Below are positions 37,907 through 56,414 of a stretch of 64,000 bases of DNA, piece by piece. The DNA is taken from contig NZ_CP011266.1 of assembly GCF_001477655.1 (NCBI RefSeq), forward strand, positions 248,001 through 312,000. The letters run 5' to 3'. Under the pieces are notes generated by a model. That model did no database searches. It had not been told where the DNA came from and saw only the letters and a list, made by a program, of their open reading frames with translations. The stretch is from Methanobrevibacter millerae. Its GTDB lineage: Archaea > Methanobacteriota > Methanobacteria > Methanobacteriales > Methanobacteriaceae. The translations under genes were made by a program, and so were the position numbers. Every line of letters begins with the position of its first letter. Position 1 is the first letter of the stretch.

Positions 37907-38881
37907 TTAATATTTCAGCCCTTTCACGTAATTTTCAAGCAGTTCAAAGAGTTCTTCTTTTGTGCTTGTTTGAAATATCTTCTTTTTGATTTCCTGGCTT
38001 CCATGGAGATTTTTCATATAATATGCGGCATTTGTCCTAAGTTTGTGCATCAGGACCTTATCTTCGTAATCTTCAATAATCATCTGTGAATGCCTTTTAA
38101 ACATGTCCAGCTTTTCTTTTGATGATACTCTTTGAGGTTCTATTCCTTCATCGATATAATCTATGCACTGTTTTACAATCCATGGATTTCCCAAAATGCC
38201 TCTTCCTATCATTACTGCATCACAGCCTGTAAAATCAAGCATGGCCTTTGCATCGTAGCATGTTCTGATATCTCCGTTTCCAATGACTGGAATTGACAAT
38301 TCCTCTTTTATGTCTTTTATTATTGACCAGTCTGCTGGAATGTCATATCTCTGATGTCTTGTACGTGGATGAACGGTTATGGCGGATGCCCCTGCATCTT
38401 CAATGATTTTTGCAATTTCAAGTGCGTTGTTTTCATCCCATCCGCTTCTTATTTTTGCTGTAACTGGGATGGGGACTGTATCTACAACGCTTTTTATTAT
38501 GTCTTCCACTTTATCAGGACTTTTAAGCAGTGCGCTTCCAGCTCCTGATTTTACTGCCACTTTCGTAACCGGACATCCCATATTGATGTCGATGATTTCA
38601 GGAGACATGTTTTTGTAAATGTATTCGGCGGCGATTTTGAATGATTCGGAATCTGATCCGAATATCTGCTGGGCAATAGGCCTTTCGTAATCGGTCATAT
38701 GAAGCATTTCGCGGGTCTTTCTGTTTAAATGCATCACTGCTCTTGTTGAAACCATTTCAGTTTCTATCAGTCCGCAGCCCATTGACTTGACGATTCTTCT
38801 ATATGCTGAATCACAGATTCCTGCCATCGGGGCTAAAACAATCTGATTTTCTATTTCCACATTGCCTATTTTCCATTTCAT
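37907..38881 (-). CDS. tRNA-dihydrouridine synthase
   Basis: An FMN enzyme that reduces uridine in tRNA D loops. It has 324 residues. Signatures: IVLAPMAGICDSAYRRI, QIFGSDSESF, DINMGCPVTKVAVKSGAG with the catalytic Cys, AKIRSGWDE, ITVHPRTRHQRYD, and GNGDIRTCYDAKAML. The C-terminal helical domain is short, so it is the simple archaeal Dus type. It is convergent with the group II intron, whose end is 13 bases from its stop. Confidence 0.93.
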   Translation of the reverse strand: MKWKIGNVEIENQIVLAPMAGICDSAYRRIVKSMGCGLIETEMVSTRAVMHLNRKTREMLHMTDYERPIAQQIFGSDSESFKIAAEYIYKNMSPEIIDINMGCPVTKVAVKSGAGSALLKSPDKVEDIIKSVVDTVPIPVTAKIRSGWDENNALEIAKIIEDAGASAITVHPRTRHQRYDIPADWSIIKDIKEELSIPVIGNGDIRTCYDAKAMLDFTGCDAVMIGRGILGNPWIVKQCIDYIDEGIEPQRVSSKEKLDMFKRHSQMIIEDYEDKVLMHKLRTNAAYYMKNLHGSQEIKKKIFQTSTKEELFELLENYVKGLKY

Positions 38882-38952
38882 ATACGTAGTCTCATCTAAA
38901 AATAATTGTTTATGATATATATTTGATTAAAATTATTTAATGGTTAATGAAA

Positions 38953-38992
38953 ATAGCCATTATTTCAAAATCTTTGTTTTAATAATGGCTAT
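38953..38992 (-). terminator. 12-bp hairpin after the sodium symporter gene
   Basis: ATAGCCATTATT (38953-38964) pairs perfectly with AATAATGGCTAT (38981-38992) around a 16-base loop. On the minus strand it lies just after the symporter stop and is followed by a short T-rich stretch. Confidence 0.55.
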
Positions 38993-39003
38993 CTTTTAGT
39001 ATT

Positions 39004-40491
39004 TTAGTGTTGGACTTCTTTGTAGAAATCTTCATTTTTCGCAGGCAGCTTTGTAAATATTATTGGAAGTGCAATCAATACAATAAGTAATATTGCTTTT
39101 ATGGTAATGCTTACAGGATCTTCATCTGCAAGTGATGAGAGGATTCCTTGAATCCAAAGGAATAAAATACATATTGGTAATATGAATTTAATAACAGTTT
39201 TCCAAGTTTTTCCTACTTTTATTTTTGAATTTTCATTTAAAGTAGCTATCAATTTATCAAAATCGTATATCCATCCGAATATTATACATTCAAGAAGCAC
39301 TGCAAATAATAATGCAAAGTTATTTAAGAATGCATCAAATACTCCAAGAATTAAGCTTCCAGCCCCTGTTGCAAATATTGATGAGACACATACTCCAACA
39401 ATACATACAATAGTTGCTGATTTTTTACGTGAAAAATTGAATTTTTCTGAAATTGAATAACATACTCCCTCTAAAAGTGCAATGATTGAAGTAATTCCTG
39501 CAAAGAATATGCACAGGAAGAATAGAGGTCCTATGATGTTTGCACTCGGTCCCATCACATTGAATACCTGCGGGAATACAACAAATGCCAGGCCTGTTCC
39601 TTCAGTTACCAATTCATTGAATGGTATTCCGCTAGTCATTGCCATGAATCCTAAAATGGAAAAGATTCCTATTGAGTTAAAAACTTCAAATCCTGAGTTT
39701 GAAAATGCTACGACTATTGCATTGTCTGTTAATTTGGATCCTTCAGGCAGGTAACTTGCATATGTAAGTGCAATTGCCATACCTAGACTTAAGGAAAATA
39801 CGATTTGACCGAATGCGGCAAGCCAAACATTCGGATTTAATAATGCATTCCAATCAGGAGTGAATATTTGGGTATATCCTATTGATGCACCAGGCAATGT
39901 TAAGGAAAATATTACAATAATCACTACGATTATACAAAGTAGCGGAAGTAAAACCTTGCTTACTTTTCCTATTCCGTCGTTTAAGTTAGTTCTCAATATT
40001 GCCCATGTAACAAACCAAATGGCCACGATTGATGCTAATACTGCAGGCACTATAGTTGTTATTCCATCTATTGAATCTGTTGCCTGCAATACGGACTGTG
40101 AAAAGAATAAATCAGGATTTGATCCCCATGCTTTTGTAAAGCTTAAGACAACATATATCAAATCCCATCCGACTACACAGATGTAATACGTTGTAATTAA
40201 AAACACGATTGTCAAAACAAACCATGCTACAGGCTCAAGTTTATTATACACTGAGTATAATATCTTTGATAGTGATGTCTTGAATTTATATCCAACTGCA
40301 TATTCTACTAAAACAAATGAGATTCCTAAAAGGAATAATGATACGATGTAGGGTATCATAAATGATCCTCCACCATTGGAGTACAATACATTTGGGAATC
40401 TCCAGATGTTACCAAGTCCAACAGCAGAACCTATCATTGCTAAAATAAATGTTATATTACTGTTCCACACACTTTTATTTTCATTCGACAT
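39004..40491 (-). CDS. SNF-family sodium-dependent transporter
   Basis: A secondary transporter of the neurotransmitter:sodium symporter family. It has 495 residues and about twelve membrane helices. The first-helix sodium and substrate site GSAVGLGNIWRFPNVLYSNGGGSFMIPY is highly characteristic in its parts. The substrate is probably an amino acid but cannot be told from sequence. It stands alone on the minus strand. Confidence 0.9.
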   Translation of the reverse strand: MSNENKSVWNSNITFILAMIGSAVGLGNIWRFPNVLYSNGGGSFMIPYIVSLFLLGISFVLVEYAVGYKFKTSLSKILYSVYNKLEPVAWFVLTIVFLITTYYICVVGWDLIYVVLSFTKAWGSNPDLFFSQSVLQATDSIDGITTIVPAVLASIVAIWFVTWAILRTNLNDGIGKVSKVLLPLLCIIVVIIVIFSLTLPGASIGYTQIFTPDWNALLNPNVWLAAFGQIVFSLSLGMAIALTYASYLPEGSKLTDNAIVVAFSNSGFEVFNSIGIFSILGFMAMTSGIPFNELVTEGTGLAFVVFPQVFNVMGPSANIIGPLFFLCIFFAGITSIIALLEGVCYSISEKFNFSRKKSATIVCIVGVCVSSIFATGAGSLILGVFDAFLNNFALLFAVLLECIIFGWIYDFDKLIATLNENSKIKVGKTWKTVIKFILPICILFLWIQGILSSLADEDPVSITIKAILLIVLIALPIIFTKLPAKNEDFYKEVQH

Positions 40492-40688
40492 TTATATCAC
40501 TTAATTATATAATTTAGATTTTTCCTTAATATATAATTGGTGATTTCTATATGTTTAATTATCAAATAAAAGCATTAGATTAATTATTATAAAAATTAAG
40601 CAATTTTTTTAAAAGTGAATAATATTTTTATAATATTTTAAAAAATAGAACATTTTTCATTAAAATGATTTAAATAAAAAAAGAGGAA

Positions 40689-40708
40689 ATTAGGATTATA
40701 ATCCTAAT
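40689..40708 (-). terminator. Stop-codon hairpin after the DUF1002 gene
   Basis: ATTAGGAT and ATCCTAAT (8-bp stem, 4-base loop TATA) on the minus strand contain the end of the coding sequence and the TAA stop (40698-40696). It is followed by CCTC and a run of seven T. Confidence 0.6.
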
Positions 40709-41544
40709 CTGCTAAATATTCCATCTAAAGAGAAGCCGCCTGAATTGTTTCCTACAATTTCAGTCACTTGATTTGTGTAGTTTGCAACATCTCCCTGTAC
40801 AGCCTGAACTCCACCGATACTTGTAGCAAGGTTTTCAATACTGCTGTTTGACATATTGATGTTGTTATTTACTGTATAGTTGTAAATAATGTTTACAATA
40901 GTGGAGTGGTCTGTGATATTATTTTGTTGTACAGTTTCTTTAACGTTGTCCACTAATTTTGTTAAGTTTTCTGCACTTACATTATCTTTTTGTACGATTT
41001 CTGATTCTGTGTAAATTTCTTCGTTAGCAGCTTTTTTTACAGTATCAGGTATTTGAACATTGGTTGCTGCTTCGTATGAATTCATAATGCCGGCAAGTGC
41101 GGATTCACCGGTTGCAGATACTGGACTGGTTACATATGCATGTCCATGAGTAACTCCAGCAGATTTTAGTGCTGAGATGTACATATCCGCAGTAATAGTG
41201 GTGATTTTTGATTTATCCACAGTTACTTTAATATTTCCTTGTTCGCTTAAGTCAACTAATGCACATGAGAATATTTGATCTGAACCATAGGTTTTTCCTG
41301 TTATGGTACTTGAGATTTTATTCACATCAGCTGCTGTAATAGTTTTGGAGTCAATATTTTTCACATCAACTTTTGCCTGTTGATTAAAGAAGTTATCCAC
41401 AGTAGACTTATAGTTTGCATTATTATAAGTCGTTTCACCATAGGTAATCACTTTGGTATTTGATTGAGCTGAAAACCCAATAGGCAAAGCGATACCAACA
41501 ATAACAATTGATAAGAGTATTATACCAATCAAAGATTTGCGCAT
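40696..41544 (-). CDS. Secreted DUF1002 protein
   Basis: A 282-residue exported protein. The signal segment is LIGIILLSIVIVGIALPIG, then SAQS. The body carries the DUF1002 pattern: VITYGETTYNN, ITAADVNKISSTITGKTYGSDQIFSCALVDL, ALKSAGVTHGHAYVTSPVSATGESALAGI. DUF1002 is known from Firmicutes and methanogens; its function is unknown. AGGTGAAA precedes the ATG. It is the first gene of the secreted-protein region that continues to 63291. Confidence 0.85.
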   Translation of the reverse strand: MRKSLIGIILLSIVIVGIALPIGFSAQSNTKVITYGETTYNNANYKSTVDNFFNQQAKVDVKNIDSKTITAADVNKISSTITGKTYGSDQIFSCALVDLSEQGNIKVTVDKSKITTITADMYISALKSAGVTHGHAYVTSPVSATGESALAGIMNSYEAATNVQIPDTVKKAANEEIYTESEIVQKDNVSAENLTKLVDNVKETVQQNNITDHSTIVNIIYNYTVNNNINMSNSSIENLATSIGGVQAVQGDVANYTNQVTEIVGNNSGGFSLDGIFSRLGL

Positions 41545-42307: not shown

Positions 42308-42600
42308 CATATTAATTTTACATGTTTTCTAATCGAATTCCCATTTAATTTTTTTATTTAACATCCATTGTGATTGGCTCGTTATGCTGATTACATCGTT
42401 TGTTGTCTTTTTTAGTTGCGAATAGATTTTTTGACTTTTTTTGGCAGATTTTATGTGAGAACTGATATTTTTCATTGGTCAATGCCATGTAAAATTTTAT
42501 ATACAAATATTAAAATATATAATATTATATATAATCTCAATTATTTTTTTTAATTTGATTTTGATTGTATATTTACATGTTTTATACAGGTGTTAAAAAA

Positions 42601-45600
42601 ATGAACAATAAAATATTTATTATACTATTTTTCCTGTTTGCATTAATATCTGTGTCTGCTGTTTCGGCGGCGGATGCGGATGGAAACAATGATACGATTG
42701 TTTCATCAGCTAATGCGGAGATACTTTCCGCTGCAAATGATGTTAATGCAATAGACGATTTGAATAAAGATTATTCCGACAGTGATGATAAGGCACTTGC
42801 AAATGATGCCAAATCACTTGCTTTCGGTAAAAACAATGAAATTATTGGTGCGACATATGAGGAAGCTAACGGGGACTCAGCATCTCCAGTACTTGGTGCA
42901 GGCGAGTATGATGTTAATATAGAATGTTGGACTGCGTCATATGATGAATTTAGAACTGAATTTGAGGCTCATATTCAGGGACCGGATCAACCTGTTGGTC
43001 GTCTCCAGTTAGATGTCGATGGTAAGCAGGTGGCTTCCGTTGATATTGATAGACCTGGTCAGTTGTTCTCATGTGATCCTGTGAATGCCGGTACCCATAC
43101 TTGGTCTGCCAACTTCCAGCCTAATGGTGGTGGTGACACAAGTAGCGGAAGCGGATCGTTTACAATAAATAAGGCCGATTCCTCTATTAATATTATAAAT
43201 CCTTCAATTGAAATCGACGTTGGTGCCAGTGCAAATTTAAATTTATATGTTGATATGTACCCTTATTCAGCTAGTCCAAGTTTTTCTTCAAGTGATGATA
43301 ATGTTGCTAAAGTTGAAAACGGCCAAATTACAGGTGTTGGTGTAGGTACTGCAACAATTACAGTTTCATTTGCAGGAAATACAAATTATAATGCTGCTGA
43401 AAACAAGACTATCACTGTTACTGTAAACGAAGACAAGATACGTGCGAATTGGACTTATATTAGTATGGCCGGCAAGGAAGTAAGTATTACTGGCGTTATA
43501 CCTGTTCCATGGAACTATTATCCTGAATGTTATGTGAAATATGCTAATGGCACTGCTTTGCCTGTCGGTACAAAAATTACAATTTCATGTCAGGGTGAAC
43601 AAAATTATACTATCAACGCTGTTACTCAGGAAGATGGTTTATTCAATGTTAATTTAAGTAATGTTAAACTTGGAGAATATAAGACTACTTTCTCTGCTGA
43701 AAATTATACTGATGCAAAAGCTACAGTATATGTAGTTAAAGCATTAACTGAAATTAATGTTACCGATACTAATGTTTCTTTAAAAGTTAATAAGAATGTT
43801 CCTGCAAGCGCTACTTTAACTCCTGCTGATGCAGGTAACTTGACATACACTTCAAGCAATTCCAGCATTGCAATTGTTGAAAATGGTAAAATTAAGGGTA
43901 TTAAGGAAGGTAAAGCTAACATTACTGTCAGCTTCGCTGAAAATGAAATGTATTTTGCTGCTAAAAATAAGACAATTGAGGTTACTGTAACTTTAAATGA
44001 TGCTAGTGTTGCCGCTGAGGATATTACTTTGGATATTGGTGCTAATGCCACTATTGCTGCTACTACAACTCCTGAAGGTTTGAAAGTTGATTACACTCCG
44101 GATAACTCTGGTGTTGTGACTGTTGAAGATGGTGTTGTCACTGGTGTTAAAGTGGGTACTGCTAAAGTCACATTAACTGTCGGTGGAGATGAAGTATATG
44201 CTGAAAACTCAACCACCATTACCGTAACAGTTAAAAAGATTGATACTACTATTCTTGCTGAGGAATCTTTAGAGTTGACCATTGGTTCTAATGATACTGT
44301 TCTTGTTGTTATTGAACCTATTAGTGCTAATTTAAATGCTACTTTTGCTTCCAGCAATCCTTCTATTGTGACTGTTGACGATGATGGTAATGTTAAGGCT
44401 GTTGGCGTAGGTAATGCTACAATCACTGTCAGTTATGCCGGTGATGATAAGTATAATGCTGCTGAAAACAAGACTATCACTGTTACTGTAAACGAAGACA
44501 AGATACGTGCGAATTGGACTTATATTAGTATGGCCGGCAAGGAAGTAAGTATTACTGGCGTTATACCTGTTCCATGGAACTATTATCCTGAATGTTATGT
44601 GAAATATGCTAATGGCACTGCTTTGCCTGTCGGTACAAAAATTACAATTTCATGTCAGGGTGAACAAAATTATACTATCAACGCTGTTACTCAGGAAGAT
44701 GGTTTATTCAATGTTAATTTAAGTAATGTTAAACTTGGAGCATATCAGACTACTTTCTCTGCTGAAAATTATACTGATGCAAAAGCTACAGTATATGTAG
44801 TTAAAGCATTAACTGAAATTAATGTTACCAATACTAATGTTTCTTTAAAAGTTAATGAGAATGTTCCTGCAAGCGCTACTTTAACTCCTGCTGATGCAGG
44901 TAACTTGACATACACTTCAAGCAATTCCAGTATTGCAATTGTTGAAAATGGTAAAATTAAGGGTATTAAGGAAGGTAAAGCTAACATTACTGTCAGCTTC
45001 GCTGAAAATGAAATGTATTTTGCTGCTAAAAATAAGACAATTGAGGTTACTGTAACTTTAAATGATGCTAGTGTTGCCGCTGAGGATATTACTTTGGATA
45101 TTGGTGCTAATGTCACTATTGCTGCTACTACAACTCCTGAAGGTTTGGAAGTTGATTACACCCCAGATAACTCTGGTGTTGTGACTGTTGAAGATGGTGT
45201 TGTCACTGGTGTTAAAGTGGGTACTGCTAAAGTCACATTAACTGTCGGTGGAGATGGAGTATATGCTGAAAACTCAACCACCATTACCGTAACAGTTAAA
45301 AAGATTGATACTAATATTACTGTTGATGAAGAGTCTTTGGACTTGAGAGTTGGTGATGATTCTAGTGTTACTGCTACTTTGACTCCTGCTGATGCTGGTA
45401 ATGTTACTTTCACTTCCAGTAATCCTTCTGTTGTGACTGTTGATAAGAATGGTAATGTTAAGGCTGTTGGCGTAGGTAATGCTACAATTACTGTCAGTTA
45501 TGCCGGTGATGATAAGTATAATGCTGCTGAAAACGTTACTGTTGCTGTGACTGTTAAAGACCCTAAGCAAAATACTACAATGGATATTGTTACTGGTGAA

Positions 45601-46860
45601 GTTGTTGAGGATGAAAACTCTACAATCACTGTAAACTTGCCTGAAGATGCTACTGGTAATGTTACTGCTGTTGTTGAAGGCGAAGAGTACACTGCTCCTG
45701 TTGTTAACGGTACTGCAAATATTTCGGTTCCTGGCTTAAGGCCTGGAAACTATTCTGTTCCTGTAACATACTCCGGTGACGACAAGTACAACCCTGCTAC
45801 AGAAAAAATTACATACAATGTTGAAGAGGTTGACAAATCAGATATCATTTCAGCTCCTGATGTTACCAAATACTTCAATGGGCCTGAAAGATTTGTTGTA
45901 AACATTACTGATTATAAAGGCAATCCTGTTGCTAACAGATCTGTCAGCATTGTAATCAACGGTAAAGAATATAACAAAACTACTGATACAAATGGTACTG
46001 CAAGCATTGCTTTAGGATTAAACAGTGGTGTTTATAATGCTACTGTAACTGTTGGAAATGAAACCTTAAATCCAGTAGTTACTGTATTGTCTACCGTTAA
46101 CGGTACTGATGTTGTAAAAGTCTACAGAAATGATACACAGTACTACGCTACTTTCCGTGACAGCGAAGGTAACTACCTCAAAGACGGAACTGCTGTTAGA
46201 TTCAACATCAATGGTGTAATGTATGACCGTAAAATCTCAGGTAGTGAAGGTTTAGCTAAATTGAACATTAACCTTAATCAGGGTAATTATGTGATTACAG
46301 CAACCAACCTTGAAACCGGTGAAAACGCTGCAAACAACATTACAATCATTTCCAGACTCGTAGAAAACAGTGACATTACCAAATACTACAGAAACGCAAC
46401 ACAATACACTGTTAAAGTGATTGGTGATGACGGTAATCCTGTTGGTGCCGGTGAAACCGTAACATTCAACATTAACGGAGTATTCTATAACCGTACTACC
46501 AATGCATCAGGCATTGCTAAGTTAAACATTAATTTGCCGCCTGGAGATTACATAATCACTGCAGAATATAAAAACTGTAAGGTATCCAACAATATTAAGG
46601 TATTGCCTGTTTTATCTGCTAAGGACTTGAATAAAAAGTACGGCACTCCGGATCAGTTTGTTGCAACACTCCTTGACGGTCAGGGAAAAGCTCTGGCTGG
46701 TGAAACTGTTCAGTTTAATGTAAACGGTGTTTTATATAACAGAGTAACTGACAGTGACGGTCATGCTAAGCTTAACATCAGATTGATGGCTGGACAATAC
46801 ATTATAACTTCAAGTTATAATGGTGCAAGCATAGCAAACAATATAGTTATAACTGCATAG
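42601..46860 (+). CDS. Adhesin-like surface protein with Big2-type Ig repeats
   Basis: A secreted protein of about 1419 residues from the ATG at 42601 (AGGTG upstream). The signal peptide is IFIILFFLFALISVSAVSAAD. A series of bacterial Ig-like group 2 domains follows, recognised by the repeated ATITVSFAGNTNYNAAENKT and SSNPSIVTVDDDGNVKAVGVG patterns. A 1065-base unit is present twice in tandem. The C-terminus has four or more copies of a roughly 85-residue domain (KYYRNATQYTVKVIGDDGNPV, FNINGVFYNRTT) shared with the adhesin at 51945. No anchor helix is visible at the end. Attachment to the cell wall is inferred. Confidence 0.88.
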   Translation: MNNKIFIILFFLFALISVSAVSAADADGNNDTIVSSANAEILSAANDVNAIDDLNKDYSDSDDKALANDAKSLAFGKNNEIIGATYEEANGDSASPVLGAGEYDVNIECWTASYDEFRTEFEAHIQGPDQPVGRLQLDVDGKQVASVDIDRPGQLFSCDPVNAGTHTWSANFQPNGGGDTSSGSGSFTINKADSSINIINPSIEIDVGASANLNLYVDMYPYSASPSFSSSDDNVAKVENGQITGVGVGTATITVSFAGNTNYNAAENKTITVTVNEDKIRANWTYISMAGKEVSITGVIPVPWNYYPECYVKYANGTALPVGTKITISCQGEQNYTINAVTQEDGLFNVNLSNVKLGEYKTTFSAENYTDAKATVYVVKALTEINVTDTNVSLKVNKNVPASATLTPADAGNLTYTSSNSSIAIVENGKIKGIKEGKANITVSFAENEMYFAAKNKTIEVTVTLNDASVAAEDITLDIGANATIAATTTPEGLKVDYTPDNSGVVTVEDGVVTGVKVGTAKVTLTVGGDEVYAENSTTITVTVKKIDTTILAEESLELTIGSNDTVLVVIEPISANLNATFASSNPSIVTVDDDGNVKAVGVGNATITVSYAGDDKYNAAENKTITVTVNEDKIRANWTYISMAGKEVSITGVIPVPWNYYPECYVKYANGTALPVGTKITISCQGEQNYTINAVTQEDGLFNVNLSNVKLGAYQTTFSAENYTDAKATVYVVKALTEINVTNTNVSLKVNENVPASATLTPADAGNLTYTSSNSSIAIVENGKIKGIKEGKANITVSFAENEMYFAAKNKTIEVTVTLNDASVAAEDITLDIGANVTIAATTTPEGLEVDYTPDNSGVVTVEDGVVTGVKVGTAKVTLTVGGDGVYAENSTTITVTVKKIDTNITVDEESLDLRVGDDSSVTATLTPADAGNVTFTSSNPSVVTVDKNGNVKAVGVGNATITVSYAGDDKYNAAENVTVAVTVKDPKQNTTMDIVTGEVVEDENSTITVNLPEDATGNVTAVVEGEEYTAPVVNGTANISVPGLRPGNYSVPVTYSGDDKYNPATEKITYNVEEVDKSDIISAPDVTKYFNGPERFVVNITDYKGNPVANRSVSIVINGKEYNKTTDTNGTASIALGLNSGVYNATVTVGNETLNPVVTVLSTVNGTDVVKVYRNDTQYYATFRDSEGNYLKDGTAVRFNINGVMYDRKISGSEGLAKLNINLNQGNYVITATNLETGENAANNITIISRLVENSDITKYYRNATQYTVKVIGDDGNPVGAGETVTFNINGVFYNRTTNASGIAKLNINLPPGDYIITAEYKNCKVSNNIKVLPVLSAKDLNKKYGTPDQFVATLLDGQGKALAGETVQFNVNGVLYNRVTDSDGHAKLNIRLMAGQYIITSSYNGASIANNIVITA
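43392..45321 (+). repeat. Tandem 1065-bp internal duplication in the adhesin
   Basis: The block beginning at 43392 (NKTITVTVNEDKIRANW) recurs at 44457 with a period of 1065 bases (355 codons). About 865 bases match almost base for base (43392-44256 and 44457-45321), with few substitutions such as EYKTTFS to AYQTTFS and TDTNVS to TNTNVS. The rest of the unit (up to the next YNAAEN) has diverged. This implies recent duplication or gene conversion. Confidence 0.85.
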
Positions 46861-46890: not shown

Positions 46891-47094
46891 AGAATATTCT
46901 CTTTTTTTTATCTATCTGATTTTTACCGGGTCAAGGCAATATTTACTTCATGCAATTCTATTGGACAAAAAAGTCAATTTTACTTTAAGCTTACTAAATT
47001 TTATATATAATGTAATTAATAAATTACACTTATAGTGGATAATTTTTTAATGCTGCTATGATTTTATTAATTAGCATAAAAAGGGGGTGAAAAT

Positions 47095-50000
47095 ATCAAA
47101 AGGTTAGACAGTAAGTTGATGTTTATTCTAATAATTTCGTTAATGCTTATGTTTTCGCTGAATGCGATTTCTGCAGAGGATAATTCAACTTTGCTTGCGA
47201 CAAGCACAGATTCTCCTGATGTATTGCAGGCACCCAATTCGATAAATGTTCACGTAACTGATTCCTATGTTGCTGAAAACAATACATGGAGTGAAGATGG
47301 AGTAAATCTGGCTAATGCAAGCGTATCAGTTTATGATTCATCTAACAATTTGGTATTTTCAGGATTAACAAATAGTGAGGGTAATGTTGTTATATCAAAT
47401 TTAAACTCAGCAAATTATAATGTTGAGATTAAATATTCCACTTATGAGCCTTATCGCCAAAGTGTTGATTTGTCAACCAAAACTTCCCAGGCTATTGACT
47501 ATATGTTCATTCCTGACATACTCTTGTTGGTGGATTATGATTCACACAATGAAAAAGTTGATTTATTGATGGAAATGTCAAAAAGGGTTGCTTATATAAG
47601 TACGACAAACTTTGATTTGACAAGGGAATGGTTATTTGACTATGCAAAATTCATCCAATTGGATATGTTTAACGAAGGTTCATATCATACTGTAACTGGT
47701 GAATACTTAAAAGAAGTTCTTGAGACTTCACCTGCTAACATTAACTATAATGTGGCATATACATTTGGTATTTATTCAGACAGTATATTAAATGCAACGG
47801 GATTGCATATTGTGGGTGCTAGTCCATCCAATAACACATTCCATACAATAGAAAATACTTATATAGGTTCTTATTTCCAGGCTGATGATATTGATAATTC
47901 TGATGTTTTGGATGCAAACATGAAAAATTATCTTAAATATGTTTATTATTTAATTAATTCTTCCAAATATACCAATCCTTTATTGGATGTTAAAAATGCT
48001 CCGTTAATGAGTCCTGAATGTGGTTTTTACCATCCTGATTTGGGAATCTATACAATCGTGCCTGATGGAAATATAATCAATGAATGGATTAAAAACAATC
48101 CTGGTTACGATGCTGATGGGCATGGAAGTCTTAATTGGATGATTGAGAATTATCCTAACTGGCTTGAAAATACTTTGGATCCTACAACTCTTTTCAAAAC
48201 ATTTGAAAAAGATTATATTGGCAATATTTCTTATGACAAACCATTCATAGTTATTGCTACTTACTATTCTGGTGGAAGTGTAGTCGATGCTTTAATTAGA
48301 AGTTATGAGGCTAACGGAAGAGCTGCTTTTAATGTATTTAAAACAGGTACTGTTCCTTCAATGTCTTCTATATTAAATAAGATTACTGATATCTCAACTG
48401 TTGGTATTTCAGCTATCACATCACTTTATAGTTGGTCTTTAAATTATGCAAATGGTTCTGCTGAGGGGGATTTGGAAGATATTGATCTTGCAGTATTAAA
48501 AGGTGTTTATGATATTTCCGAAACAAGTTATCTCAATGAACTTGGTCCTCAAATAGAATGGACTTTTTCAGTAACTTATCCAAGTTTTGAAGGTGTATAC
48601 GGTCCTATAGTTTTATCATATGTTGATGGTATGGGTAAATCTCATGTCATACAGTCAGGTGTTGATAAAATGGTCAAATTGTCCTGTCAATGGGCTGAAC
48701 TAAAAGAAATGGATAATGCTGATAAGGTTGTTTCAATTATTTTGTATAATTATCCTCCAGGTAAAGCAGAAATCGGCGCATCATATTTGGATGTATTCCA
48801 AAGTACTTATGACTTGCTTTTCCAATTGGAAAAAGCGGGTTTTGATGTTGGAAATGTTTCAGACATTCCTTCTTTATATAACTTAACTGAATTGATTGTA
48901 AAGTTCGGTAACAAGGGTACTTGGGCAAGAGGTTTATTAAATGAATATGTAGAACAAAACTTTGATGAATTGATGGCACACAACCAGCTCATTGATATAA
49001 ACCAGTTCTATAATTTGACTGCACATATCAATCCTGCATTATATGAATGGATGATTAATCGTTGGGGTGATGGTTTGGGTGAAATCATGGTTTACAATAA
49101 CACATATATTGTAATTCCTGGTTTGTGGTTTGGTAATGTATTCATCACTTTCCAGCCTTCAAGGGGATGGGAAGAGGTTCAGAATTACCACGACTTGAGC
49201 TTACCTCCTCATCAGCAATATGTTGCATTCTATGAATGGTTGGATCAGGTAGTTGGTGCTGATGCAATAATCAACATGGGTACTCACGGAACACTTGAGT
49301 GGCTTCCTGGTAGAAATATTGGTGTAATGGAAGGAGATTGGACTTTTGAGTTAACTTTAACTCCTACAATTTATCCATATATTGTTTCTAACCCTGGAGA
49401 AGCTATGGTTGCACGTGATAGGATTGCTCCATTAATGATTACTCACATGACTCCTGCAATGGTTTCATCTGCATTATATGGTAACTATACTCTTTTGGCT
49501 GATTACATTGCTCACTACAGAGATCAAGTCAAACTTAATGTTTCTACAAATGCTGAGGAATATAAGGATTTAATCATAGATTTGGCTCCTTCTTTAGGTT
49601 ATTCCAAATTTAATGAATCCAATGAAACATTTGATGAATATGTTGCTGAATTGCATTCATATCTTGAAGGTATGGAAGATGATTTCTATACTTATGGTTT
49701 ACATTATTTAGGTAAGGTTTTAACTGGATACGAGTTAATCGAAGAGGTTATAACTGTTACAACATCTCAAACAAGAATATATAATCATATATTAGCTCAT
49801 TTCTATCCTGAATTGGCAAATATGAGTTTTTATGATGATATTCGTCACCATGATGCCTATGAGTTGGTTGAAGCTTCAGTTGTTTCATTCCTGAAAGAAT
49901 ATGTTACCGCTTTGGTTTGCGGAACTTCCGTTGAATATCTGAATGATGAGTATGGAATTGCTAAAGGCTCTGCTCTTTACAATGATACTGCTTATGCGGC

Positions 50001-51828
50001 CAGTGTTATTGTAAATATTGAAAACAATAATGAATGGGCTGCAATCATCAAGGCTCTTGAAGGAGATTATGTGCTTGCAGGTTTATTTGCAGACCCTGCT
50101 TACGGTGATTCAATTCCAACAGGTTATGATGGTTTTGCATCTGATTCAACAAAAATGCCGTCAAGGTCAGCTTATGCATCCGCAATCAAAATCGTTAATT
50201 TGCTTTTGGCTAATTACATGGAAGAACATGGTGAATGGCCTAAATTGACTTCATTAATCCTTTGGGGTACTGAAATATCAAGAACAGAGGGAATTGGTAT
50301 TGCAGAATTCTTATACTTCTTAGGTTGCAGGCCTGTCTGGGCTGAAAACGGTAAGGTCATTGGTGTTGAAATGCTTCCGTTAAGTGATTTGACTGTACAG
50401 TTAAATGATGGCAGTGTTGTAAACAGGCCAAGAATTGACGTATTTGCAAGTATCGTAACAAGTAATAAGGACTGGTTAACATGGCTGCTTACCGGTGTAA
50501 ATCTCGCGTTGAATGCTGAAGGCGAAGACTTCTCACAAAATTATGTAAAACTTCATTATAATCAAACTGGTATAATCGATAGGTTATATGGTCTTCCTGG
50601 TGCTATTTTGGAAGGTACGGGTATGAGTAATTTTATTCCAAGTACTAGTGACTGGAATATTGAAACTGTTAATGAAGAGGCAACAAGCATTTATCTTGAC
50701 AAGGTTTCATTTGCTTGGAACATGGATGATAAAGGTAATATTGTTGTAACTCCGCAAAAAGATGCTTATATGAAATTACTCTCACAAGTTGATTTAATTA
50801 CTCAAAATTTCGACAGTACATGGAGATTCATTGATTCAGATGATTATTATGATTGGTTTGGTGGATTATATAATGCTGCACGTACACTTGGTGCAAAACC
50901 TGATACCGCATTTGTTGATATCAGAAACCAGAACAATTATGTTTCAAGAACTTATGAGGAAGAATTGGACTTTGAAATTCGTAGTATGATTTTAAATCCT
51001 AATTATTATAATCCTTTAGTTAATTCTCAGGCAGGTTCACTTTCTTATGCTAAAAATATGGAAAACCTTTATGGAGGATTAATCTTAGGTGGAGGTCAAT
51101 TAAATGCAGAATTAGGTAATCAAATAGCTAATACATACAACGGATTAACAGGAACTATTAAATCCACTGCTCAGGCTGCAGCTTGGCAGAGTATGGCTGC
51201 TTGGATGTTTTACTTAAACGACCAAAAAGTATGGGAAGGTGATCCTAAGGCCGTTCAGGAATTGGCCAATAACATTATTGAAATAGCTACCCAGTACGGT
51301 GTTGCATGTTGTCACCACACCTGTAAGAACTTGGACTTTAACATGAAAATCATTCAGGCCAGTTCACTTTCTCCTCAAAAAAAGGCGGAATATGCTGAAA
51401 TTTTAGCTCAGGCTACTTTGACTGATCCGTTATTTGTGGCTGATGATGCTACTGTTGATGGAGACGGTAAAAGTGAAACAAATCCTTCATCTGAAGAGGT
51501 TCTAGTCAATGGAACCAGTGACAGCAATGGCGGTCAGGCCGGTGGTCAGACTGCTGTTGGAGACCAGCCTGCTTCATCACAGGATGCAAGTGCAAGCGCT
51601 TCAGCTTCTGCACAGTCAACCAGTGACTCATCACAGAACAATGATGCTAGTGAAGACGCTTCTCAAGCTAGTGACTCCAATGCTTATGAAATTTCAAAAA
51701 GCTCTCCAGCTAAAAGCGCTAGTCCTGAATCAAGCATGCCTATCGTTGTAATTATTGCTATCATCGTATTGATTGCAATATTCCTGGTTGGTTATTCTCG
51801 CAATAAAGATGATTTTGATGAATATTAA
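47095..51828 (+). CDS. Secreted, membrane-anchored CobN-like protein
   Basis: About 1570-1577 residues. The N-terminus is a signal peptide (LMFILIISLMLMFSLNAISAED) followed by a peptidase-regulatory-like beta domain (to about residue 130). Residues about 130-1440 form the CobN/magnesium-chelatase large-subunit domain, with MGTHGTLEWLPGRNIG, YPYIVSNPGEAMVARDR and a CCHHTCKN motif. A Ser/Ala/Gln-rich linker and a C-terminal helix (PIVVIIAIIVLIAIFLVGY) with a short charged tail follow. CobN normally works in the cytoplasm in metal insertion into tetrapyrroles; this copy should face outward. The start is odd: GGGGGTGA lies 4 bases before an ATC at 47095; the first NTG is TTG 47116. Confidence 0.8.
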   Translation: MKRLDSKLMFILIISLMLMFSLNAISAEDNSTLLATSTDSPDVLQAPNSINVHVTDSYVAENNTWSEDGVNLANASVSVYDSSNNLVFSGLTNSEGNVVISNLNSANYNVEIKYSTYEPYRQSVDLSTKTSQAIDYMFIPDILLLVDYDSHNEKVDLLMEMSKRVAYISTTNFDLTREWLFDYAKFIQLDMFNEGSYHTVTGEYLKEVLETSPANINYNVAYTFGIYSDSILNATGLHIVGASPSNNTFHTIENTYIGSYFQADDIDNSDVLDANMKNYLKYVYYLINSSKYTNPLLDVKNAPLMSPECGFYHPDLGIYTIVPDGNIINEWIKNNPGYDADGHGSLNWMIENYPNWLENTLDPTTLFKTFEKDYIGNISYDKPFIVIATYYSGGSVVDALIRSYEANGRAAFNVFKTGTVPSMSSILNKITDISTVGISAITSLYSWSLNYANGSAEGDLEDIDLAVLKGVYDISETSYLNELGPQIEWTFSVTYPSFEGVYGPIVLSYVDGMGKSHVIQSGVDKMVKLSCQWAELKEMDNADKVVSIILYNYPPGKAEIGASYLDVFQSTYDLLFQLEKAGFDVGNVSDIPSLYNLTELIVKFGNKGTWARGLLNEYVEQNFDELMAHNQLIDINQFYNLTAHINPALYEWMINRWGDGLGEIMVYNNTYIVIPGLWFGNVFITFQPSRGWEEVQNYHDLSLPPHQQYVAFYEWLDQVVGADAIINMGTHGTLEWLPGRNIGVMEGDWTFELTLTPTIYPYIVSNPGEAMVARDRIAPLMITHMTPAMVSSALYGNYTLLADYIAHYRDQVKLNVSTNAEEYKDLIIDLAPSLGYSKFNESNETFDEYVAELHSYLEGMEDDFYTYGLHYLGKVLTGYELIEEVITVTTSQTRIYNHILAHFYPELANMSFYDDIRHHDAYELVEASVVSFLKEYVTALVCGTSVEYLNDEYGIAKGSALYNDTAYAASVIVNIENNNEWAAIIKALEGDYVLAGLFADPAYGDSIPTGYDGFASDSTKMPSRSAYASAIKIVNLLLANYMEEHGEWPKLTSLILWGTEISRTEGIGIAEFLYFLGCRPVWAENGKVIGVEMLPLSDLTVQLNDGSVVNRPRIDVFASIVTSNKDWLTWLLTGVNLALNAEGEDFSQNYVKLHYNQTGIIDRLYGLPGAILEGTGMSNFIPSTSDWNIETVNEEATSIYLDKVSFAWNMDDKGNIVVTPQKDAYMKLLSQVDLITQNFDSTWRFIDSDDYYDWFGGLYNAARTLGAKPDTAFVDIRNQNNYVSRTYEEELDFEIRSMILNPNYYNPLVNSQAGSLSYAKNMENLYGGLILGGGQLNAELGNQIANTYNGLTGTIKSTAQAAAWQSMAAWMFYLNDQKVWEGDPKAVQELANNIIEIATQYGVACCHHTCKNLDFNMKIIQASSLSPQKKAEYAEILAQATLTDPLFVADDATVDGDGKSETNPSSEEVLVNGTSDSNGGQAGGQTAVGDQPASSQDASASASASAQSTSDSSQNNDASEDASQASDSNAYEISKSSPAKSASPESSMPIVVIIAIIVLIAIFLVGYSRNKDDFDEY

Positions 51829-51944: not shown

Positions 51945-54900
51945 ATGTTTAAAAAGATTAATATTATTTTGGTCTTGTTTGTGCTTTTAATCGTTTCTTT
52001 GGGCGCAGTCAGTGCAGCTGATGATGTCAATGAAACTTTAAGCATTGATGGGACTTCTCAAAATAGTGAAGTATTGACTGCTTCACAATATACTGTCACT
52101 TCTGATACTTATAGCCAATATTTCTCAACTTCTGGTGAAATGGCAAGTGCTATTAATTCAGGAGATACTGTAGTCTTAAACGGTGATTTCTCACAAAAGG
52201 ATTTCACCATCAACAAGCAAATTATTCTTAAAGGTTCCGGCGGAACAATATCTAACGGTATCATTAAGCTTACCAGCGGAGCTTCCGGAACTGAAATCAG
52301 CGGTTTAACTATTAGAAATAATGAAAACTATCATTCTGGAATTTTCATTGATGGAGCTAAAAACTGTTATATTCATGACAATGACATCAAAAATACCGGT
52401 ATGTCATCTTATCCTATTGTTTTAAATGAAAATTCTGATTTCAACAGGATAGTCAAAAATACTCTTGAAGCTTACGGCCAAACCTATGGTCACGGTTCAA
52501 GGTCAACATCAATTATCCTTCTTGGAAGTGCGGATAATAACTACATAGCTGAAAATAACATTCGCGTTGCAGATGCAAATGCAATCTATTTGTCCAGCTA
52601 TGGCGGAGGTACTTTCAAGGGTGGAGAGTCATTCAACAATGTAATTTATAAAAATGTCATTACCTACACTGTTAACACTACCTCATGGGCTTATGCTATC
52701 CAGTTGATGGGTGGAAACAATACTGTAGATTCAAATATAATCAATGGTGCATACAGAGGAGTTTCCTCTTCAAATCAGCCATTGAATAAGGTAATTAACA
52801 ATATTATTTATGTTGCAGGTACTGATTTCAGTTCCCATGCTGCAACAGGTGGAGATTATGCTATTGCACTTGCAGCAAATGCAACAGTAAGAAATAATAC
52901 TGTAACTGGTAATTTTGTTGGTGCAGCTATTTCTGCAGGTGACAATTCAGTCATTGAAGATAATTATGTCAATGCAACCAAGGGATACGGTATAGAAGCA
53001 AGCGGTGACGACACCAAAATCATTGGAAATGAAATTTACACCACTTCAGGTGCTGCTGTTCACCAGCAAGGTAATCAGGAAGGCATTGTGGTTGACAGAA
53101 ATGTTATAGTTTCTGACACAGGTATCGGTGTTTTGCTTTCAAAATCATCCAAAACCAAGTATCCTTCAAGAATTACCGTTACCAATAACCAGATTACAAC
53201 TTCAAACAAGTATATGATTAATGCCGCCGATGCGGATAAGGATTCATGGGTTATTAAAAACAACACTGGTAGTGGTACAATATTGACTCCTTCAGGTGAG
53301 GTAGACCCTTCAGTTCCCGACTTTAACTTTAACGGAACAACCCATATAATTACTCCTGCAAATTATCACAATTTCATTGATGAAAACGGAAACCTGAAAA
53401 ATGACTTCGTACAGGACGGAGATACTCTATACTTCGATGGAGTATTTGACAATAAACAGATTCTTGTTACAAGCAGTGTTAAAATAACAGGTAACAGCCC
53501 TAAATTTACCAATTCCACTTTCATTGTAACAACAGATTCTGTATGGATTGAAAACTTGACAATAATCAATAAAAATGCTGAAAGGCATAATGCATGGGGT
53601 ATTTTTGTAGCGGATGCTCAAATCGTAAAGATTGTAAACAACAACATTACAGTTTATGACCCTGCATCAGCTTATGCAGTCTATATCTATCAATCATCAA
53701 AGGTTTATGTTGAAGATAATGAACTGTTCTCCGGCGGAAACTCCCTGACATATCCTTTGCTTGGTTACGGTGCTGAAGAATGTGAATTTACAAATAATGT
53801 TGTCAACTGTCTCGGTACCGGTGAGATACATGTATTTGAAGACGGCGCTGATATAAATGCAAACACTTCTGAAGTCTGCATCGGCCAATGCCTTGGAGAT
53901 GTATTGAAAGAGCACTGTCTTGACGGAACTAATATAGTTCCTGAAATCTACAGGACATACGGTATTTTAATGATCAAATCATCCAACAACACATTAACAG
54001 GAAATGATGTAAAAGTCCGTTCATTAATTAATCAGACATTGCCGTCCAATTCAACCAATTCACTTGTGGGTATTGACTTCTACTATGACTGTGACAACAA
54101 CATGATTTCAAACAATAAAATTGATGTTGAAGGTATGGATAATTACCTGTATGGTGCTGGAGCTATTGCACATTCAACCGGTCAGTTCTCATCAACAACA
54201 GCTAAAAACAACACTTTTGTGGATAATGAAATCACTGTAAAAGGACCTAATGTCGCTGAAGGATTAATATTCGGTGATGGCTGCGACGATACAAAAATCC
54301 TAAACAATGATTTGATATTGGAATGTGACCGTATGGTTTACGGTATTAATTTGGAGATATCTGACAAGTCAACAATCAAAGGAAATAACATTAAAATCAG
54401 TTCCGATGTTGCATATGGTATTGAAGCATTTGAATCAGATGGAAATGTCATTGAAAACAACACTATTGTTGGAGAAGGTAAAGTTATCTCCGGAATTGCA
54501 GGTGTTAAAACTAACAATAACATAATTCAAAACAATACCATCACATCTAAAGGCAGTGGTGATAAACTAGACTTTGCTGTTCGCGATTCTGTAAATGCTC
54601 CAAACTCTGGTGTGTTCCTTACCGGTGTATCAAAAGGCAATTTAATTGATTCAAACATTATTGAAACTGAAAATGGGTATCCTGTGGATCTGGATACTGC
54701 TGCAACCGGAAACACTGTAACATACAATTATCTTAAAGGAAAAGAAGGTTCCGGTGACGATGGAGTAAACAATTCAGCATCCAACACAGTACATGATAAC
54801 TACGCATCAACATTTGATAATTTGAAAATGGATAACGTTACTGTTGAATACAATACCAAATTCACAGTTACTGTTGAAACTGAAAAAGAGGCTAACGGCG

Positions 54901-56414
54901 CTAATGTACAGTTCATGTTGGGAAATCTCATTTTAGGCAATGCAACTGTAAGCAATCAAAAGGCCAGCCTGACTTATGATTTAAATAAGAATTTAAATGT
55001 TGGAAAATATAATGTTACGGCGGTTTTAACAAAATCCGGATTTAAATCCGGCGAGATTACTTCTGTTTTAGAAATTACTAAAGCTAACATAACTGTAACT
55101 GTTGATGATGTATCCGCTAAACAGGGAGGCAGCGTTCCTATAGTTGCCCATGTTGTCGATTCAAATAAAAATCCTGTCTCAGGAATTGTAGTCAGATTCC
55201 AGAGAAATACTAATTATATCGGAACTGCAACTTCTGATGAAAACGGTGTTGCATCATTCAATACTAAAATACCCGCATTGTCTGACGGAACATATAATCT
55301 AATTGCAACAACAACAGAATCAGATAATTATGCACAAAGCATTGGGCAAGGCAAACTGACTGTAAGCGACACTTCAAAGACATATACAAAAATCACTGCA
55401 GGTAATGTAACGATGTATTGTAAAGACGGAACCAGGCTTGCTGCAACCATAACTGATTTGGATGGAAAAGCATTGTCAGGATTGAAGGTTAATGTAACTA
55501 TTAACAATGTTCAATATACCAGAACAAGTAATGATAACGGCCAGTTCTCAATAGCTTTAGGATTGCCTTCAGGTGTGTATAACGCATCATTTGACTTCAA
55601 AGGAGATGCTAAATACAGGGCTTCAAGTGCAACTTCCACAGTCACAATCAATCCTACATTGTCAGGTACTGATGTCGTGATGATGTATAAGAATGGAACA
55701 AGGTATTATGTTTCCGTTAAAAAGGACAATAAGCCTGTAGCAGACGTTAAGATTAAGTTAAACATCAATGGTGTAATGTATTACCGTACAACCAGTGCTG
55801 TTGGAACTGCAAGCATTGCTATTAATCTTATTCCGAACACTTATATTGTAACTGCTGAAAGGGAAGACACTGGTGAAAAAGTAAGCAATACCCTTTTAAT
55901 CAAGCCATTGCTTGTTGAAAATAAGGACTTGACTATATACTACAGAAACGGTACCGGATACACGGTTAAAGTAATAAAACAGGACGGCAGTGTTGCAGGT
56001 GCAGGTGAAGTTGTTAAATTCAACATCAACGGAGTATTTTATGAACGTAAAACAAATGATCAGGGAATCGCTAAGTTAAATCTTAATTTAGGTCCTAGTG
56101 ATTACATCATTACTGCTGAATATAATGACTTCAAAGTTTCAAATAAAATTAAGATACTTCCTGTGCTTTCAGCATCTGATCTGACTAAAAAATATGGTAC
56201 CAGCACTCCATTCACTGTAAAAATAGTGGATGGTCAAGGAAAACCTCTGGCTAATGCAACTATTGGATTTAACATTAATGGAGTATTCTATAATCGTATA
56301 AGTGATTCAACAGGTACTGCTAAGTTAAACATCAACCTGATTGCTGGAGAATATATAATCACATCATCTTATAATGGTGCAAACATAGCAAACAAAGTAA
56401 CCATCACTGCATGA
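51945..56414 (+). CDS. Adhesin-like protein with parallel beta-helix and Ig-like repeats
   Basis: A secreted protein of 1489 residues. The signal peptide is IILVLFVLLIVSLGAVSAAD. Residues about 60-950 are right-handed beta-helix repeats of the NosD/PbH1 kind (NTVDSNIINGAYRGVS, NVIENNTIVGEGKVISG). Then come Ig-like domains (VPIVAHVVDSNKNPVSGI) and four or five copies of the roughly 85-residue domain found at the end of the 42601 adhesin (YYRNGTGYTVKVIKQDGS, FNINGVFYERKTND). It ends NGANIANKVTITA, nearly the same as the other protein, with no anchor helix. It probably binds polysaccharide or cell surfaces; inferred. Confidence 0.88.
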   Translation: MFKKINIILVLFVLLIVSLGAVSAADDVNETLSIDGTSQNSEVLTASQYTVTSDTYSQYFSTSGEMASAINSGDTVVLNGDFSQKDFTINKQIILKGSGGTISNGIIKLTSGASGTEISGLTIRNNENYHSGIFIDGAKNCYIHDNDIKNTGMSSYPIVLNENSDFNRIVKNTLEAYGQTYGHGSRSTSIILLGSADNNYIAENNIRVADANAIYLSSYGGGTFKGGESFNNVIYKNVITYTVNTTSWAYAIQLMGGNNTVDSNIINGAYRGVSSSNQPLNKVINNIIYVAGTDFSSHAATGGDYAIALAANATVRNNTVTGNFVGAAISAGDNSVIEDNYVNATKGYGIEASGDDTKIIGNEIYTTSGAAVHQQGNQEGIVVDRNVIVSDTGIGVLLSKSSKTKYPSRITVTNNQITTSNKYMINAADADKDSWVIKNNTGSGTILTPSGEVDPSVPDFNFNGTTHIITPANYHNFIDENGNLKNDFVQDGDTLYFDGVFDNKQILVTSSVKITGNSPKFTNSTFIVTTDSVWIENLTIINKNAERHNAWGIFVADAQIVKIVNNNITVYDPASAYAVYIYQSSKVYVEDNELFSGGNSLTYPLLGYGAEECEFTNNVVNCLGTGEIHVFEDGADINANTSEVCIGQCLGDVLKEHCLDGTNIVPEIYRTYGILMIKSSNNTLTGNDVKVRSLINQTLPSNSTNSLVGIDFYYDCDNNMISNNKIDVEGMDNYLYGAGAIAHSTGQFSSTTAKNNTFVDNEITVKGPNVAEGLIFGDGCDDTKILNNDLILECDRMVYGINLEISDKSTIKGNNIKISSDVAYGIEAFESDGNVIENNTIVGEGKVISGIAGVKTNNNIIQNNTITSKGSGDKLDFAVRDSVNAPNSGVFLTGVSKGNLIDSNIIETENGYPVDLDTAATGNTVTYNYLKGKEGSGDDGVNNSASNTVHDNYASTFDNLKMDNVTVEYNTKFTVTVETEKEANGANVQFMLGNLILGNATVSNQKASLTYDLNKNLNVGKYNVTAVLTKSGFKSGEITSVLEITKANITVTVDDVSAKQGGSVPIVAHVVDSNKNPVSGIVVRFQRNTNYIGTATSDENGVASFNTKIPALSDGTYNLIATTTESDNYAQSIGQGKLTVSDTSKTYTKITAGNVTMYCKDGTRLAATITDLDGKALSGLKVNVTINNVQYTRTSNDNGQFSIALGLPSGVYNASFDFKGDAKYRASSATSTVTINPTLSGTDVVMMYKNGTRYYVSVKKDNKPVADVKIKLNINGVMYYRTTSAVGTASIAINLIPNTYIVTAEREDTGEKVSNTLLIKPLLVENKDLTIYYRNGTGYTVKVIKQDGSVAGAGEVVKFNINGVFYERKTNDQGIAKLNLNLGPSDYIITAEYNDFKVSNKIKILPVLSASDLTKKYGTSTPFTVKIVDGQGKPLANATIGFNINGVFYNRISDSTGTAKLNINLIAGEYIITSSYNGANIANKVTITA

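Follow-up and report, generated by a model that had tools for sequence, protein, structure and literature searches.

Layout of the locus

We analysed a 64,000-nucleotide stretch of Methanobrevibacter millerae DNA (the window) and found, by open-reading-frame reading, that it encodes a 1570-residue protein of the CobN/ChlH family at 47116-51828 (+). The same genome encodes two PF02514 proteins, the window protein (type A) and a 1645-residue paralogue (type B, L005:8082-13019); 56 unique PF02514 proteins were collected in all, 25 of them type A rows. The features of the locus are given below in window coordinates, with the evidence in brackets.

42565-46860, + strand: Ig-like adhesin-like protein, upstream, without a strong match in the other loci compared (domains; relatives)
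47080-47115, + strand: Shine-Dalgarno-like AAAGGGGGTG (47080-47089) and probable non-ATG start region with in-frame ATC 47095 (sequence reading; relatives are arranged alike upstream)
47095-51828, + strand: gene of the predicted surface CobN-like protein, counted from ATC 47095 (open reading frame and upstream sequence)
47116-47175, + strand: hydrophobic part of the signal peptide, predicted cleavage AISA/ED (translation, hydropathy)
47293-47493, + strand: CarboxypepD_reg-like beta domain, residues 60-126 (profile search, PF13620, E 3.3e-8)
47998-51246, + strand: CobN/Mg-chelatase H domain, residues 295-1377 (PF02514, E 3e-170; PDB relatives)
49279-49290, + strand: GTHG motif, residues 722-725, in which His724 is the equivalent of HmuS His538 (25/25 type A rows)
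50833-50865, + strand: DSDDYYDWFGG, residues 1240-1250, CobN-like, with Asp at the HmuS His1209 position (Asp in 25/25 type A rows)
51307-51330, + strand: CCHHTCKN, residues 1398-1405, candidate metal or thiol site (CCHHTC in 24/25 type A rows)
51436-51735, + strand: Ser/Ala/Gln-rich stalk, residues about 1441-1540, fast evolving (translation, dN/dS)
51736-51795, + strand: C-terminal transmembrane helix, then a short charged tail (translation, hydropathy)
51945-56414, + strand: beta-helix adhesin-like protein, downstream, a conserved neighbour of the type A gene (domains; relatives)

The architecture that an earlier note had read from this DNA, namely a signal peptide, chelatase and beta domains, a Ser-rich stalk and a C-terminal helix, was found in full. 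The PF02514 (CobN-Mg_chel) match scores 568.9 bits against a curated cut-off of 24.5 by profile search and covers profile positions 33-1087 of 1090; CCHHTCKN lies past this match and ahead of the stalk, and the last 30 residues form a strong hydrophobic helix (mean Kyte-Doolittle hydropathy 3.64) with a short charged tail. The outward location proposed earlier is supported by the predicted topology, with a signal peptide at one end and a membrane helix at the other. These results confirm that the observation of a secreted, membrane-anchored chelatase-family protein at this locus is real.

The called open reading frame begins at TTG 47116, and the start given in the earlier note, 47095, is an in-frame ATC. 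This ATC stands at normal spacing right after a strong Shine-Dalgarno-like AAGGGGGTG, and translation from it yields a normal signal peptide, IKRLDSKLMFILIISLMLMFSLNAISA/ED, with a charged n-region gained. Judged by the upstream sequence, ATC 47095 is likely the real start of the gene. A non-AUG start is possibly conserved, as a GGAGGTG-type Shine-Dalgarno followed by ATC or ATT (not ATG) at the expected start of the signal peptide is frequent in surface CobN-like genes (window 47080-47115, L005 upstream of 13019, L022, L034, L036-L040 and L054).

We found adhesin-like proteins on both sides of the gene by domain search, which agrees with its earlier placement between adhesins, but of the two, the downstream beta-helix adhesin alone is conserved as a neighbour. 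All nine genus loci with enough flank (window, L036, L037, L039, L040, L054, L056, L058 and L073; L038 is too short) have a relative of it next to the type A gene, and further relatives occur in L063-L065 and L067. Eight of the nine loci (not L054) also have a DUF1002 protein nearby. The upstream adhesin gave one weak match only among the relatives examined and looks like a local insertion. In a comparison of window positions 37907-41544 and 51945-56414, the order DusB, sodium symporter, secreted DUF1002 protein, type A gene and beta-helix adhesin was largely shared by close relatives.

Chelatase fold, active site and selection

The closest solved structures in a PDB search by sequence were ChlH (8e-67), a CobN that we take to be that of M. 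tuberculosis (1.1e-65) and HmuS (1.5e-64). Hence, the fold of the window protein is settled by kinship to solved ChlH, CobN and HmuS without a model, and the chelatase-fold similarity that had been named beforehand as a point on which the idea could fail is upheld by sequence. AlphaFold2 on residues 231-1425 with a six-row alignment gave a pLDDT of 35 and a pTM of 0.26.

The catalytic histidine found across the superfamily (HmuS His538) is retained as His724. At the position of the second ligand, every type A row has Asp (D[ST]DDY..W.GG), whereas HmuS (His1209) and BchH have His; by alignment, Asp is also found here in the CobN proteins of S. meliloti, Spirosoma and PDB 7c6o. The GTHG and DSDD regions rank among the best conserved of type A proteins. 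Equivalents of HmuS Met79 and His254 are absent from the window row, which has Phe and Ser in this weakly aligned part, and so is the methionine-rich insertion (at most 6 Met per 100 residues vs 25 in Prevotella HmuS). Type B has GRHATHE in place of GTHG, and its HDDHEHDDDE loop is a possible extra metal site. One secreted archaeal copy (L016:946-5076) has lost GTHG and kept CCHHTC, and is possibly a non-catalytic member of the family.

The Cys motif near the stalk, put forward earlier as a possible metal site, proved to be conserved in type A, and its role in metal binding is that of a candidate. All eight type B rows carry CCDCSC. Both CCHHTC and CCDCSC are absent from the HmuS, CobN and BchH reference rows and from the short cytosolic rows; their presence in the other secreted archaeal rows is mixed.

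Over four ortholog pairs, dN/dS was 0.05-0.17 in the chelatase domain, showing that this domain is under purifying selection; it was 0.07-0.10 in the tail with the Cys motif (four orthologs) and 0.19-0.61 in the stalk for the three of four pairs in which it was computable. Hence, given the low dN/dS of the chelatase domain and the presence of CCHHTC in nearly all type A rows, the features of the window protein go beyond chance. These results also bear on whether the protein is an adhesin in which the chelatase fold provides no more than a big surface scaffold, with no ligand bound and no reaction catalysed. Such a role would fit the conserved beta-helix neighbour, the Ser-rich stalk and anchor as in other surface proteins, and the annotation of a M. 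ruminantium protein as a candidate for surface peptides (PMC2812497). We consider it quite improbable, as the active-site and Cys motifs are conserved across 25 rows and dN/dS is lower in the domain than in the stalk where computable.

Secreted relatives, cytosolic enzymes and HmuS

PF02514 proteins occur by profile search in 97/120 Methanobacteriales genomes and in 49/52 genomes of the genus of the window, and the closest loci in a contig search are five contigs of rumen and gut Methanobrevibacter. Signal peptide and C-terminal helix are both present in 20/25 type A rows; the five exceptions are cut by a contig edge (L024, L075), broken at the C-terminal end (L025, L038) or start downstream of the signal (L054). 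The pair is not seen in the short cytosolic-type archaeal rows of about 1120-1240 residues (0/10), and in L069 the neighbours of a gene of this short type include a chelatase-type ATPase and genes for CbiQ/ABC transport. In the genus of the window, CobN-like proteins are usually secreted.

The earlier note had pointed out that cytoplasmic CobN depends on ATP and partner subunits; TIGR02442, the model of the CobST/ChlID ATPase partner, has 0 matches in the genome of the window. It matches 36/120 Methanobacteriales genomes, and in the genus only 1/52 (G032), as a 114-residue fragment. The partner is present in 25/97 genomes with PF02514 vs 11/23 without it, and 72/97 genomes with PF02514 have no match.

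We weighed whether the window protein is an ordinary cobaltochelatase of B12 synthesis whose secretion is mis-predicted. The NCBIfam family name (cobaltochelatase CobN) and the CobN-like DSDDYY would suit it, and the window protein and the CobN of CobNST (PDB 7c6o, 9uk9) share PF02514, with GTHG/GKHG and DSDDYY aligning residue by residue in 7c6o. That enzyme, however, is cytosolic, ATPase-dependent and without signal, stalk, anchor or CC motif. The window protein falls below every NCBIfam CobN cut-off (best 452 of 1619, NF004645; 352.6 of 822, TIGR02257), and the two hydrophobic ends set type A apart from the cytosolic-type rows. Ordinary CobN was rejected on the predicted topology and the missing ATPase, and we find it hardly credible here. 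The ChlH/BchH subunit of Mg-chelatase (PDB 4zhj) likewise has PF02514 and GTHG in common with the window protein, but is cytosolic and ChlID-dependent, and the BchH row has His where the window protein has Asp. Annotations such as 'cobaltochelatase CobN' and 'BchH' in these genomes should not be taken to indicate cobalamin or chlorophyll chemistry.

An unrooted tree was built from 47 rows hand-picked from the 56 unique PF02514 proteins together with bacterial ones. The cytosolic enzymes form one group (100/99), HmuS, type B, bacterial secreted rows and some archaeal rows another (98/97), and type A a third (100/100), with two L068 rows weakly next to type A (64/50). One change separates secreted from cytosolic rows, and type A lies outside the HmuS-containing group while the paralogue lies inside. 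Hence, type A did not arise by a recent export of cytosolic CobN, and this tree does not make it an HmuS ortholog either. The phylogeny against cytoplasmic CobN proposed earlier thus does set type A apart from the cytosolic group, but not as a lone relocated CobN. The best reading of these sequences is that the window protein represents a third clade of class-I chelatase relatives that face outward and have no ATPase.

According to the HmuS paper (EMBO J 2025, PMC12583661), HmuS takes iron from heme without ATP, with NADH required in vitro, and loses turnover upon the H538A substitution; archaeal HmuS relatives are described there as numerous, not tied to cob genes, without complete hmu operons and of unclear function. 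HmuS of B. thetaiotaomicron (PDB 9d26) resembles the window protein in its PF02514 body, its membrane segments at both ends, the lack of an ATPase and the GTHG histidine His538. It differs in having His1209 (LSLDHxxEFMGG), Met79/His254 and the Met-rich insertion, whereas the window protein has an extra beta domain and CCHHTC and stands outside the HmuS-containing group. Plain HmuS orthology was rejected on the four missing features and the tree. A true heme dechelatase of the HmuS type, which would take iron from dietary heme in the gut, has in its favour the same family, the membrane anchor, the lack of an ATPase, the rumen and gut habitat of the relatives and an hmuS-T-U-V-like paralogue operon in the same genome. 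It is improbable for the window protein, which lacks four features that define HmuS (His1209, Met79, His254 and the Met-rich insertion), and it is the paralogue that groups with HmuS.

Other secreted members of the family have been described. In one paper (PMC6460266), BtuS1 and BtuS2 of Bacteroides fragilis are predicted periplasmic, membrane-attached CobN-like proteins of metalloporphyrin salvage, genetically linked to FeoAB and heme use, with the family name BtuS credited to Rodionov 2003. The window protein is like them in being CobN-like, membrane-attached and, by prediction, exported; the bacterial periplasm and the FeoAB/heme link are theirs. M. ruminantium M1 mru2047, annotated 'BchH', has a membrane helix at either terminus and served in 2010 to derive surface peptides (PMC2812497); by description, it is probably the same kind of protein as the window protein. 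CobN candidates in Methanothermobacter are reported in a further paper (PMC3087415). Papers on the archaeal vesicle proteome and on adhesins do not mention CobN or cobalt in their main text. Hence, a surface 'BchH' in M. ruminantium and extracytoplasmic HmuS and BtuS are already in print, and what is new here is the separate type A clade.

The T-U-V module and a proposed role in metal handling

In the genome of the window, the paralogue is followed by DUF2162 (T; PF09930, 3e-69), an ExbB-type protein (U; PF01618, 4e-10) and DUF2149 (V; PF09919, 9e-23), the slot order of Bacteroidota hmuS-T-U-V. The hmu operons of Prevotella, Bacteroides finegoldii and Aureibacter comprise HmuY and a TonB receptor, the CobN-like HmuS, a membrane protein, ExbB and DUF2149. 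Archaeal and Bacteroidota U and V match each other by phmmer and profile, whereas archaeal T is not detectably related to HmuT by hhalign. T as a relative of HmuT or of CcdA/UreH was rejected, as hhalign gave no support, and we therefore take T as a variable slot: it holds DUF2162 in methanogens and Trichlorobacter, a NicO/DsbD_2-like protein (below Pfam cut-offs) in Runella and HmuT in hmu operons. DUF2162, of about 235 residues, is annotated only as a predicted transporter. V carries DP..NLvDamlV, with a membrane Asp in 24/25 rows that resembles that of ExbD. A paper on P. gingivalis HmuS makes HmuU an ExbB homologue (PMC13227078). The paralogue operon thus has a gene order like that of hmuS-T-U-V, with no HmuY/R within the 20 kb read, and the window gene has no hmu neighbours.

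Across the genomes, at least 40 of the 131 better DUF2162 places listed are within 2.5 kb of a PF02514 place (40/40 on the same strand), and at least 49 of the 131 within 20 kb (47 on the same strand). Strong DUF2162 matches occur in 94/97 genomes with PF02514 vs 6/23 without (Fisher 5e-13, inflated by shared ancestry); when any DUF2162 match is counted, 12/23 genomes without PF02514 have one (Fisher 3e-7, likewise inflated by shared ancestry). T-U-V directly follows type A in L066, type A clusters with T-U-V and adhesins in L063-L065, and in G048 (L068) three secreted CobN-like genes lie together with T, U, V and CbiM. In the genus of the window, type A is mostly unlinked to T-U-V, and no T-U-V gene is adjacent to the window gene; type-A-only genomes such as G005 and G028 keep a separate T-U-V island (L057, L059). 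The sole DUF2162 found in the genome of the window is in the paralogue operon; hence, both surface proteins would share one T-U-V. The link is not exclusive, since U-V modules also occur without CobN-like proteins (e.g. V in G022). DUF2149 is present in several copies in PF02514-free genomes (G022, G047 and other g4 genomes), and so further surface proteins may depend on the ExbB/ExbD-like motor. We found no paper linking archaeal CobN-like proteins to DUF2162/ExbB/DUF2149 in the partial literature searched.

Our preferred explanation, which we hold tentatively and at a little less than an even chance, is that the window protein is a class-I chelatase relative comparable to HmuS and BtuS, anchored at the surface and working without an ATPase, which belongs to a separate clade and demetallates a metallotetrapyrrole or exchanges its metal. 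The PF02514 and PDB matches, the lack of TIGR02442 and PF01497, the paralogue operon, the co-occurrence with T-U-V and the ATP-independence of HmuS argue for it; the missing HmuS ligands, the lack of T-U-V linkage at the window gene, the occurrence of V without S and a T unlike HmuT argue against it. The analogy with HmuS leads us to expect binding of a metallotetrapyrrole and release or exchange of its metal; the window protein probably acts outside the cell, handling the metals of tetrapyrrole rings or removing them. Co or Ni is hinted at by the CobN-like ligand and the genomic context of relatives, and Fe by the analogy with HmuS. The earlier claim that an outward copy must do something else than CobN holds as far as a different role goes, but not as regards an isolated outward-facing CobN, secreted relatives being common; since they are common, since HmuS and BtuS are extracytoplasmic and since HmuS is ATP-independent, this something else is better put as demetallation or tetrapyrrole handling.

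A non-catalytic surface receptor, which would bind a corrinoid or other tetrapyrrole in the cleft and pass it intact to the membrane module for uptake, is rather unlikely, but has several results on its side. A BtuF/FecB-type binding protein (PF01497) was absent from the genome of the window by profile search and was found in 13/14 controls, the second His of HmuS is replaced in the window protein, and a Trichlorobacter relative adjoins cobamide genes and TonB receptors. Co is also chemically hard to remove from corrins, which counts against demetallation. However, the catalytic-site His is invariant (25/25), the conservation of GTHG and DSDD is above what a receptor appears to need, and T, at about 235 residues, would be small for a corrinoid permease.

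If the window protein is a demetallating or exchanging chelatase relative, a metallotetrapyrrole would be bound in the central cleft, reached from the cell exterior, and its metal removed or exchanged there, with His724 and Asp1242/1243 as candidate metal and acid-base residues. CCHHTC, outside the cleft domain, may take up or pass on the metal (or electrons). The metal would enter via the membrane protein T, aided by the U-V pair, which resembles an ExbB/ExbD proton-driven motor, and a single T-U-V module may be shared by the window protein and the paralogue.

A broader scheme is possible, although we regard it as doubtful: in gut methanogens, which have a pseudomurein wall but lack an outer membrane, an ExbB/ExbD-like proton-motive motor, a permease and giant surface relatives of chelatases may together strip or exchange tetrapyrrole metal (Co, Ni or Fe), with the window protein as a third, CobN-like branch that has its own CCHHTC metal or thiol site. 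Many of the Methanobacteriales relatives are secreted, no chelatase ATPase is detected in most of the genomes that have them, and T-U-V, of which U and V match hmuU and hmuV, is found along with them; this gives a concrete frame to the role of the many archaeal HmuS/CobN/ChlH relatives that the 2025 HmuS paper left open. If true, the principal gut and rumen methane producers would have a surface-exposed route of metal or tetrapyrrole acquisition, and a surface enzyme would be energized by ExbBD-like coupling in cells without an outer membrane.

Judged by the gene contexts of relatives, Co or Ni is a candidate metal besides Fe. A Trichlorobacter lovleyi plasmid protein (L078) is like the window protein in its signal, chelatase domain, CCDHTCNN, stalk, C-terminal helix and DUF2162/ExbB/DUF2149 neighbours; it differs in its cobamide cluster with TonB receptors, its type-B-like DNDDFF and its place outside the type A clade on the tree. 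On a T. lovleyi plasmid (L083:7252-19387), a secreted CobN-like gene, DUF2162-ExbB-DUF2149 and TonB receptors adjoin BzaF and cobT, a hint of cobamide or cobalt. A Runella slithyformis plasmid (L084:10787-18821) carries a secreted CobN-like protein, DUF2149, ExbB, a NicO/DsbD_2-like protein and a TonB receptor, and this cluster sits within hypABCDEF/NiFe-hydrogenase genes, a hint of nickel.
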